A stretch of 64,000 nt of DNA from Variovorax fucosicus. GTDB lineage: Bacteria; Pseudomonadota; Gammaproteobacteria; Burkholderiales; Burkholderiaceae_C. Positions within the stretch are counted from its first letter, which is position 1. Every line of letters starts with the position of its first letter. Of the stretch, positions 37,762 to 46,562 are shown in pieces. The stretch is from NCBI RefSeq assembly GCF_030316825.1, contig NZ_JASZYU010000004.1, forward strand, positions 124,001-188,000, written 5' to 3'. Under the pieces are notes generated by a model that made no database searches, was not told the origin of the DNA, and worked only from the letters and a program-made list of their open reading frames with translations. The translations under genes were made by a program, and so were the position numbers.

Positions 37762-39894
37762 ATGCCAGAGATCTCCGAAGCCATCACAGACACGCACGAC
37801 CCCGCTGCCGTCGGCCCCGCGAAAGAGGGCGAATTCATCCGTTTTCCGAACTCCCCGTTCGAGCTGTTCCAGCCCTATCCGCCGGCCGGCGACCAGCCGA
37901 ATGCGATCGAGGGCCTGGTCGAAGGGGTAGAGAACGGCGAGGTGTTCCAGACCCTGCTGGGCGTCACCGGCTCGGGCAAGACCTTCACCATGGCCAACGT
38001 GATCGCGCGGCTGGGCCGCCCGGCCATCGTGTTCGCGCCCAACAAGACCCTGGCCGCACAGCTCTACAGCGAGTTCCGCGAGTTCTTCCCGAAGAACGCG
38101 GTCGAGTACTTCGTCAGCTACTACGACTACTACCAGCCCGAGGCCTACGTGCCGCAGCGCGACCTGTTCATCGAGAAGGACAGCTCGATCAACGAGCACA
38201 TCGAGCAGATGCGTCTGTCGGCCACCAAGAGCGTGCTGGAGCGCCGCGACACGGTGATCGTGGCGACGGTGAGCGCCATCTATGGCATCGGCACGCCCGA
38301 GGACTACACCCAGATGCGTTTCATCATGCGGGTGGGCGACAAGATCGGCCAGCGCGACGTGATCGGCCGGCTGATCCGCATGCAGTACACGCGCAACGAG
38401 CAGGATTTTTCGCGCGGCACCTTCCGCGTGCGCGGCGACACGATCGATGTGTTTCCGGCCGAGCACAGCGAACTCGCCATCCGCATCGAGCTGTTCGACG
38501 ACGAGATCGAGACGCTGCAGTTGTTCGACCCGCTCACCGGCCGCATCCGGCAGAAGATCCCGCGCTTCACGGTCTACCCCTCGAGCCACTACGTGACGCC
38601 GCGCGACAAGGTCATGACCGCGGTCGAAACCATCAAGCTCGAACTGGCGGACCGGCTCAAGGAGCTGGTGGGGCAAGGCAAGCTGGTGGAGGCGCAGCGG
38701 CTCGAGCAACGCACTCGCTTCGACCTCGAGATGCTGGCCGAGATCGGCCACTGCAAGGGCATCGAGAACTACACGCGCCACTTGTCGGGCGCCGCGCCGG
38801 GCGATCCGCCGTCCACGCTGACCGACTACCTGCCGAAGGACTCGTTGATGTTCCTCGACGAGAGCCATCAGATGATCGGCCAGCTCAACGCCATGTACAG
38901 CGGCGACCGCGCGCGCAAGACCACGCTGGTCGAATACGGTTTCCGGCTGCCGTCGGCGCTGGACAACCGGCCGCTCAAGTTCGAGGAGTTCGAGACGCGC
39001 ATGCGCCAGGCGATCTTCGTCTCGGCCACGCCGGCCCAGTACGAGAAGGATCATGCTGGCAACGTGGTCGAGCAACTGGTGCGGCCCACCGGGCTGATCG
39101 ACCCCGAGGTCGAAGTGCGCCCGGCCACGCACCAGGTCGACGACGTGCTCGGCGAGATCCGCCTGCGCGTCGAAAAGAGCGAGCGCGTGCTGATCACCAC
39201 GCTGACCAAGCGGATGGCCGAGCAGTTGACCGACTACCTGGGCGACAACGGCGTCAAGGTGCGCTACCTGCACAGCGACATCGACACGGTCGAGCGGGTC
39301 GAGATCCTGCGCGATCTGCGTTTGGGCGCATTCGACGTGCTGGTGGGCATCAACCTGCTGCGCGAGGGCCTGGACATTCCCGAGGTGTCGCTGGTGGCGA
39401 TCCTCGACGCCGACAAGGAAGGCTTCCTGCGGGCCGAGCGCTCGCTGATCCAGACCATCGGCCGTGCCGCGCGCAACCTGAACGGCAAGGCGATCCTGTA
39501 CGCCGACCGCATGACCGATTCGATGAAGAAGGCGATCAGCGAGACCGACCGGCGGCGCGCCCACCAGATCGCCTACAACGAGGCCCACGGCATCACGCCG
39601 CGCAGCATCCTGAAGCAGGTGCGCGACCTGATCGACGGCGTCTACAGCGAAAAGACGGGCAAGGAAATGGCCAAGCTCGAGCTGGAGCGCGCCAAGGTCG
39701 AGGACATGAGCGAGAAAGACGTCTCGCGCGAAATCAAACGGCTCGAAAAGCTCATGCTCGAGCACGCCCGCAACCTCGAGTTCGAGAAGGCGGCGCGTGT
39801 GCGCGACCAGCTGGCGTTGCTGCGCGAGCAGGCTTTCGGCGCGCGCGGCGGCGACAACATCGCCGTGCTGACGCCCGGCGACACGCGCGGCTGA
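37762..39894 (+). CDS. uvrB: Excinuclease ABC subunit UvrB
   Basis: 710 residues from the ATG at 37762; the open frame starts at 37672 but the first 30 codons are not conserved. Helicase-like damage-verification subunit of nucleotide excision repair. Walker [18 protein letters not shown], the beta-hairpin region [21 protein letters not shown], helicase motifs DESHQMIGQ and IGRAARN, and a C-terminal UvrC-binding UVR domain ([22 protein letters not shown]). Length matches the family. Confidence 0.97.
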
Positions 39895-39950
39895 GCGGCG
39901 TGTCGGCATCGCTCCTCGGGTTTACCCGGGAGGGGCGAGGGACTTTCTGC

Positions 39951-39972
39951 TATACTTGACTGAAATACTCAA
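39951..39972 (+). promoter_or_regulatory. iscR promoter -10 box and IscR type 1 operator
   Basis: TATACT (39951-39956) is a good -10 box. TTGACT-N5-ATACTCAA-like dyad, precisely TTGACTGAAATACTCAA at 39956-39972, has arms TTGAxT and AxTCAA, the pattern of type 1 IscR sites bound by cluster-loaded IscR in the E. coli iscR promoter. The site overlaps the promoter start, as expected for repression of the isc operon when Fe-S clusters are plentiful. A small hairpin at 39912-39933 may end the uvrB transcript. Confidence 0.65.
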
Positions 39973-39989
39973 CAACAAAGAAACTCCCG

Positions 39990-40097
39990 ATGAAGGGCTG
40001 GCTCCAACCGATTGGCAACACCAATCGACGACGGGTCGGTAAGGGCGGAGACGACGTCACCCAGCCCCACCCGGGTTCGGTGTCATTTCAACGGTAA
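39990..40097 (+). CDS. Possible 35-residue leader peptide before iscR
   Basis: ATG at 39990 to TAA at 40095-40097 is open: MKGWLQPIGNTNRRRVG and on to SVSFQR. It has no clear ribosome site and its third positions are less G/C than the neighbouring genes, so coding is doubtful. The same bases form a well-paired RNA structure (see the leader entry). Either reading could hold; the peptide is the weaker one. Confidence 0.2.
   Translation: MKGWLQPIGNTNRRRVGKGGDDVTQPHPGSVSFQR
39995..40082 (+). ncRNA. Structured 5' leader of the isc operon (unclassified)
   Basis: The iscR transcript should begin near 39963 and its start codon is at 40116, leaving about 150 bases of leader. In it GGGCTGG (39995-40001) pairs with CCAGCCC (40061-40067) to close a junction; inside is CGATTGG-CAACA-CCAATCG (40009-40027), a perfect seven-pair hairpin; after it CACC and GGTG form a short stem at 40068-40082. 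I do not recognise it as a known riboswitch class. It could regulate iscR translation or readthrough. Confidence 0.4.
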
Positions 40098-40115
40098 GCA
40101 CACCAGGAGCTTGCA

Positions 40116-40652
40116 ATGCGTCTCACAACAAAAGGCCGTTTTGCGGTCACCGCGATGATCGACCTGGCCCTGCGCCAGAACACCGGCCCGGTCACGCTGG
40201 CTGCCATCAGCCAGCGCCAACAGATTTCACTCTCGTACCTCGAGCAGTTGTTCGGCAAGCTGCGCCGGCACGAACTGGTCGAGTCGACCCGTGGCCCGGG
40301 CGGCGGTTATTCGCTTGGCCGCAAGGCGGCCGAGATCACCGTGGCGGACATCATCGTTTCGGTCGATGAGCCGATCGACGCCACGCAGTGCGGCGGCAAG
40401 GAAAACTGCCTCGGCGAAGCCGGCCGCTGCATGACGCACGAGCTGTGGGCGTCGCTGAACCAGCGCATGGTCGAATTCCTCGACTCGGTCACGCTTCAAA
40501 AACTGGTCGACGACCAGCTCGCCAAAGGCGTGCAGGTCGAGAACAAGCCGGTCATCAAGCGTGCGATCTCGGCCCAGCCGGTGGTCAAGCCAATGCGGAT
40601 CAACGCACCGAATTCGGTGTTTGCGCTGGGCAACGTTTTCGCCAAGTCGTGA
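40116..40652 (+). CDS. iscR: Fe-S cluster assembly regulator IscR
   Basis: 178 residues, Rrf2 family, with AGGAG before the ATG. N-terminal winged helix [19 protein letters not shown] and [20 protein letters not shown]; the three cysteines for the [2Fe-2S] cluster are in [20 protein letters not shown], with the typical His for the fourth ligand. It represses the isc operon when cluster-loaded, consistent with the operator at 39956. An extra C-terminal tail of about 25 residues is present. Confidence 0.95.
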
Positions 40653-46487: not shown

Positions 46488-46562
46488 GGGCGGTTAGCTC
46501 AGGGGTAGAGCACAGCATTCACACTGCTGGGGTCGGAGGTTCGAAACCTCCACCGCCCACCA
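46488..46562 (+). tRNA. tRNA-Val (anticodon CAC)
   Basis: A full cloverleaf: acceptor GGGCGGT / ACCGCCC, D-arm GCTC/GAGC, anticodon stem CAGCA/TGCTG with loop TTCACAC (anticodon CAC, reading GUG Val codons), T-arm GGAGG-TTCGAAA-CCTCC, discriminator A and an encoded CCA (46560-46562). It lies 76 bases after dnaQ. Confidence 0.97.

Follow-up and report, generated by a model that had tools for sequence, protein, structure and literature searches.

The leader of iscR in Variovorax fucosicus almost certainly carries a real, conserved RNA element. With little better than even confidence, we regard this element, taken as a whole, as a cis-acting orphan riboregulator of iscR that is controlled by a factor at its core. 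IscR is the master regulator of iron-sulfur (Fe-S) cluster assembly; it senses Fe-S status via its own cluster and represses the isc operon. The element lies in a 64,000-nucleotide stretch of DNA (hereafter the window), the coordinates of which are used throughout (Table 1). A sequence-only reading of the window had noticed a long structured leader ahead of iscR and proposed an RNA element acting beside IscR; the comparisons described below partly confirmed the former observation and partly supported the latter. Judged from the aligned sequences, the leader combines conserved structure and compensatory changes upstream of a single gene.

Table 1. Features of the iscR leader region (window coordinates)
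Feature	Position	Strand	Basis or remark
IscR type-1-like operator (presumed family) overlapping a TATACT -10-like hexamer	39951-39972	+	sequence; kept in genus leaders
P1 5' strand	39984-39988	+	two registers, genus and family model
Conserved P1-P2 linker, GATGAAGGG	39989-39997	+	GATGA invariant across the genus leaders, single changes apart
P2	39998-40039	+	covariation
Nearly invariant core, GGGCGGAGACG	40043-40053	+	conservation in genus and other-genus leaders
P3 hairpin	40056-40084	+	window fold; covariation
TTTC	40086-40089	+	potential pairing with GAGA 40048-40051, lengthening P3
Conserved tail, AACGGTAAGC	40090-40099	+	conservation
Possible P4 (40094-40099/40109-40114)	40094-40114	+	98.6% paired in genus, no covariation
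iscR	40116-40652	+	IscR similarity

The IscR-type operator sequence (39951-39972) and the ATG of iscR (40116) were both confirmed, and 165 bases separate the start of the operator from the ATG. We take the operator to belong to the IscR type-1-like family, and the neighbouring genes to be uvrB ahead of the operator and further isc genes beyond iscR. Transcription probably starts near 39963. A scan of 39850-40200 called no promoter- or terminator-like sites; its promoter part requires a -35 hexamer, and an extended -10 promoter would escape it. The segment GGGTTTACCC (39918-39930), located 5' of the operator, was kept in all 14 aligned genus leaders and may be a second regulatory site. Directly 3' of the presumed uvrB lies a hairpin-forming segment, GCTCCTCGGGTTTACCCGGGAGGGGC (39911-39936), which was not called a terminator because no T run follows it. 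Ahead of the iscR ATG, AGGAGCTTGC (40105-40118) was kept even where the leader of a family member is very short (for example, at the loci L087 and L102), and its conservation thus has a separate reason; 28 leaders of other families did not show it. The same genome encodes a second IscR/Rrf2 paralogue (G000:C1:421601-422125, L261; 55% identical), which starts ~20 bases past the preceding frame and lacks a long leader.

Within the window's genus, the region was matched in 98 of 100 genomes and, by our own count, ~94 matches span the leader. In one of these genomes, G213, an Rrf2-type match has the very coordinates found in CP063167.1 of Variovorax paradoxus, where a plasmid search gave a single Rrf2 gene; the genus is thus very probably Variovorax. 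Ninety genomes yielded 91 leader sequences (88 distinct), which were aligned by sequence only (alignment A1); the set leaves out four genomes in which the leader was matched (G216, G244, G278 and G296). The consensus fold was taken from a ribosum-scored RNAalifold run with small manual changes, default RNAalifold recovering only part of it, and comprises P1 (CTTCGC/GCGGAG), P2 (CCGACTC/GGGTCGG plus an inner hairpin), P3 (GTCACC/GGTGTC plus an inner stem) and P4 (GTAAGC/GCTTGC). Pairing was retained in 92.1% of 2832 cells, as against 37-43% with the partner slid, a control that removes relatedness in part. Nine pairs were changed on both sides, in 48 cells versus 23.9 in shuffles, and none of 500 shuffles, which leave relatedness in, reached the covariation score of A1. 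P1 and P4 hardly vary or covary in A1, and the inner stem of P3 is weak (56.5% of cells paired). When folded alone, the leader of the window is no more stable than its shuffled counterparts (z -0.63; equalled by 52 of 200 shuffles). G-U pairs are common in the genus: one pair of P1 is G-U in 85 of 88 leaders, and one pair of P2 in 69 of 87. As such pairs form on the + strand only, the fold marks this strand, and their abundance implies that the region is transcribed.

P2 consists of an outer stem (39998-40004/40033-40039) and an inner hairpin (40009-40015/40021-40027), and P3 of the pair G40056-C40084, a stem (40058-40061/40079-40082) and an inner stem (40063-40067/40073-40077). The perfect hairpin at 40009-40027 picked out by the sequence-only reading is present; it corresponds to the tip of P2 and is kept in relatives. 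A junction-closing stem, which the same reading had drawn between 39995-40001 and 40061-40067, did not survive the comparison: it is perfect in the window, only 46.5% of cells are paired over the 88 genus leaders, its covariation score is attained by 495 of 500 shuffles, and the bases of its two arms are part of P2 and P3. Stems broken without compensation in relatives, which had been named as a sign against the element, were thus found for the closing stem and not for P2 or P3, where aligning the leaders of relatives did uncover the compensating changes that had been looked for. P1 is a short closing stem, the 5' strand of which can pair in either of two registers. In the genus register, CTCC pairs with GGAG 40047-40050 (99.6% of cells paired, with hardly any variation), and in the family-model register, CCC 39986-39988 pairs with GGG 40043-40045 (94.7% paired in 43 leaders). 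TTTC pairing with GAGA would exclude the P1 of the genus register, with which it is in competition; the corresponding GAGAC/GTTTC helix was paired in 83.3% of cells in alignment A2 and 80.9% in alignment A3 (43 leaders), both described below, with little covariation. A local 5' hairpin, CTTC/GAAG, was rejected as part of the fold: it is 98.9% paired, shows no covariation, and in three leaders keeping P1 has lost its third pair. Six genus leaders (L141, L151 and L186-L189) have a shortened P2 tip and an altered core flank, which reads GAGACCAC except in L189, where it reads GAGAGCAC; by its sequence, this type is a natural variant of the element.

The element extends to other genera of the family. 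A conserved iscR start pattern was found in 85 of 200 family genomes, and in many family leaders a core resembling GGCGGAGACGG lies 68-86 nt ahead of the ATG. In an alignment-free comparison, the P2 and P3 segments of 33 core-bearing leaders, a set including two genus leaders and one false core (L076), folded much more stably than their shuffles (Stouffer -12.4 for P2 and -7.5 for P3). We aligned, by sequence only, 18 core-bearing leaders from outside the genus that were picked for a clear 5' CCC (alignment A2). Here, 78.1% of cells were paired (45-54% when slid), double changes occupied 22 cells compared with 11.9 in shuffles, and the covariation score was reached by none of 500 shuffles. A covariance model built from A2, R1, holds no row from the window's genus. 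Its top match in 6 kb with filters off was the leader of the window (39985-40100; 18.8 bits, E 3.2e-4), followed by a match of 8.7 bits. Among the 85 family genomes, R1 also matched 35, with E no higher than 0.012 and every time at the leader; 18 of these 35 had supplied rows of R1, and 17 of the 67 remaining genomes were newly found. Two further matches of R1 in the 85-genome set were weak (E 0.36 and 2.8). In the other 50 genomes showing this start pattern, R1 had no match at the leader at E <= 0.02; the element is therefore dispensable or too diverged there. The covariance search that had been suggested thus placed the leader of the window first, with all strong family matches lying before iscR. 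A third alignment, A3, was obtained by fitting leaders to the model (43 of 45 chosen loci matched; L020 and L222 did not). With the bias towards the model that such fitting brings, A3 contained 83 double-change cells (31.2 in shuffles) and had a covariation score of 0.368 (0.198 in shuffles). In A2 and in the 43-leader alignment alike, each of the six P2 pairs of the model shows changes on both sides.

These data bear on the possibility that the conservation stems from DNA sites or recent common descent and not from RNA. The operator adjacent to the leader is indeed conserved; nevertheless, pair-keeping changes on both sides occur between genera, the G-U pairs exist on the + strand only, and the hairpins occur in unlike sequences, so that we consider this explanation very improbable. 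Still less credible is control of iscR by attenuation through translation of the 35-codon open frame, which is present at 39990-40097 as the sequence-only reading had it. Its ATG occurs in all 88 genus leaders and, as in leader-peptide attenuators, a short frame lies within the leader. Unlike in those systems, the reading frame, its length and its stop are unconserved (3-38 codons, with 8 of 88 frames open into iscR and the stop shifting between frames), GATGAAG is present in just 10 of 31 core leaders outside the genus, and no terminator-like site was called in the scanned interval. The variable length, stop and frame contradict a conserved leader peptide.

The structured leader appeared to be confined to one place in the genome and to one family. 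Among 299 family genomes, R1 matched 50 at E <= 0.1; 38 matches, spread over 19 genera by our own count, reached E <= 0.001, and all 38 are directly followed by the exact 14-letter protein start of iscR. A weak second match in one genome (G088, E 0.018) falls in a coding frame, presumably YebC-like. One further family member, L222, gave E 0.15 at its leader, and some members have iscR leaders of ~14 nt. In the genome of V. fucosicus, a second model, R2, which includes the leader of the window among its rows, found a single copy (E <= 1). Over 300 genomes of the order, R1 reached E <= 0.001 in five, none of them outside the family, and over 229 genomes of the class, R2 reached E <= 0.01 in two, again none outside the family. 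Twenty-eight iscR loci from other families showed neither the core nor an R1 match in the leader. The large searches used strict filters, losing weak matches, and in the 299-genome search R1 failed to detect even the genus of the window; absence elsewhere is therefore unproven. Taken as they stand, the matches make the element look like an invention inside the Comamonadaceae-type family, present in part of it.

We found no counterpart of this structure among known RNAs. At gathering cut-offs, the 4227 families of Rfam 15 matched only a tRNA (46488-46559) in the whole window and nothing at the leader, in agreement with the earlier impression that it belongs to no known riboswitch class. Fourteen relative loci searched against Rfam 15 at E up to 5 gave one unrelated weak match, outside the leader. 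The proposal of an undescribed RNA element is borne out by covariation within and between genera, by the lack of an Rfam match and by strong matches tied to iscR alone. The leader resembles orphan riboswitch candidates and structured leaders (Rfam; Weinberg 2010, PMC2864571) in its covarying hairpins, invariant unpaired bases and fixed place before one gene, and differs from the structured leaders of Rfam in having no Rfam 15 match. There is no mention of iscR in the main text of PMC2864571, the table of which gives no Rfam number for the Burkholderiales-1 motif; this motif lies outside the comparison made here. Likewise, 'iscR' does not occur in the main text of PMC11109978, and a word search of PMC6599224 turned up nothing about a leader or a start site. 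No title or abstract opening in the literature searched describes such an element, most subscription papers being outside reach. Thus, the iscR leader structure is unlisted in the RNA catalogue and the papers searched.

How might the leader act? Base conservation is highest in the core and tail, above that of the stems. This invariance fits a binding site, and since it exceeds that of the stems, we committed to the reading that the element is read at its core. Transcription from the IscR-type promoter, with a start near 39963, would produce a 5' leader of ~150 nt, the RNA of which is predicted to fold into the P2 and P3 hairpins around the almost invariant purine-rich core; the conserved tail follows, beside the Shine-Dalgarno site. 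A factor (a small molecule, a protein or an sRNA) would read the core, and its binding would alter either the start of translation or the stability of the mRNA of iscR, thereby adding an RNA layer to IscR feedback. Fe-S biogenesis would in this way come under RNA-level control by the leader.

The means by which such binding could affect expression were sought in the leader itself. The Shine-Dalgarno sequence AGGAG (40105-40109) falls within the loop and 3' arm of the possible P4. Its computed accessibility was no lower than after shuffling, either in 28 leaders (Stouffer -1.1) or in 15 leaders of the genus (mean z +0.95). In a duplex test on 26 of 27 picked leaders, a duplex between the tail and the ribosome site was moderately favoured (Stouffer -3.3) and P1 duplexes weakly so (Stouffer -1.8). 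Pairing of the core with the AAGCC tail was tried as a candidate and was not favoured (26 leaders, Stouffer +1.9).

An orphan riboswitch, in which P1-P2-P3 would form an aptamer for a small ligand (Fe2+ or another compound of Fe-S supply) that sets the translation start of iscR, has in its favour the invariant junction-like core flanked by covarying hairpins, the presumed control of a single gene and the two alternative partners that the P1 5' strand could still take in most genus leaders. On the other hand, we found neither an Rfam riboswitch match nor a clear expression platform, whether a terminator or burial of the Shine-Dalgarno site, and three leaders of the window's clade lose the local 5' hairpin and retain P1, which speaks against a strict two-state switch. 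We regard a riboswitch as doubtful. The leader might also be a platform on which a trans-acting protein or sRNA recognises or pairs with the core or tail, an explanation that is possible, if short of probable. Conservation of the core and tail beyond the stems favours it, as does the control of the E. coli iscRSUA mRNA by the sRNA RyhB (PMC5040110). One candidate protein, CsrA (PF02599), is absent from the genome: the profile had no match there, whereas the same profile was found in 3 of 14 control genomes. Finally, the hairpins might have no regulatory role and only stabilise the 5' end of the mRNA or act as a spacer there. Such passive structure would accord with the part of the family that has no match, with the leaders of ~14 nt and with the lack of a visible expression platform. 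Nevertheless, plain stabilisers need no nearly invariant unpaired core, and we judge this explanation unlikely.

A close known parallel is the E. coli iscRSUA operon, controlled by IscR and RyhB, which has the same operon head. RNA-level control beside IscR operates there and is proposed here too. According to PMC5040110, the site at which RyhB pairs is upstream of iscS, and the portion of the mRNA encoding iscR stays stable; in contrast, the present element precedes iscR.

Returning to the riboregulator controlled at its core, it is attractive to speculate, albeit tentatively, that the leader is a family-specific RNA sensor, which binds a ligand or partner reporting iron or Fe-S supply and sets the translation of iscR. 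The invariant core offers a direct handle for mutation, probing and the search for such a partner. If the sensor reading is true, Fe-S assembly would be tuned by RNA as well as by the cluster of IscR. A conserved RNA ahead of iscR would give this environmental bacterial family a second control point, one unlisted to date.
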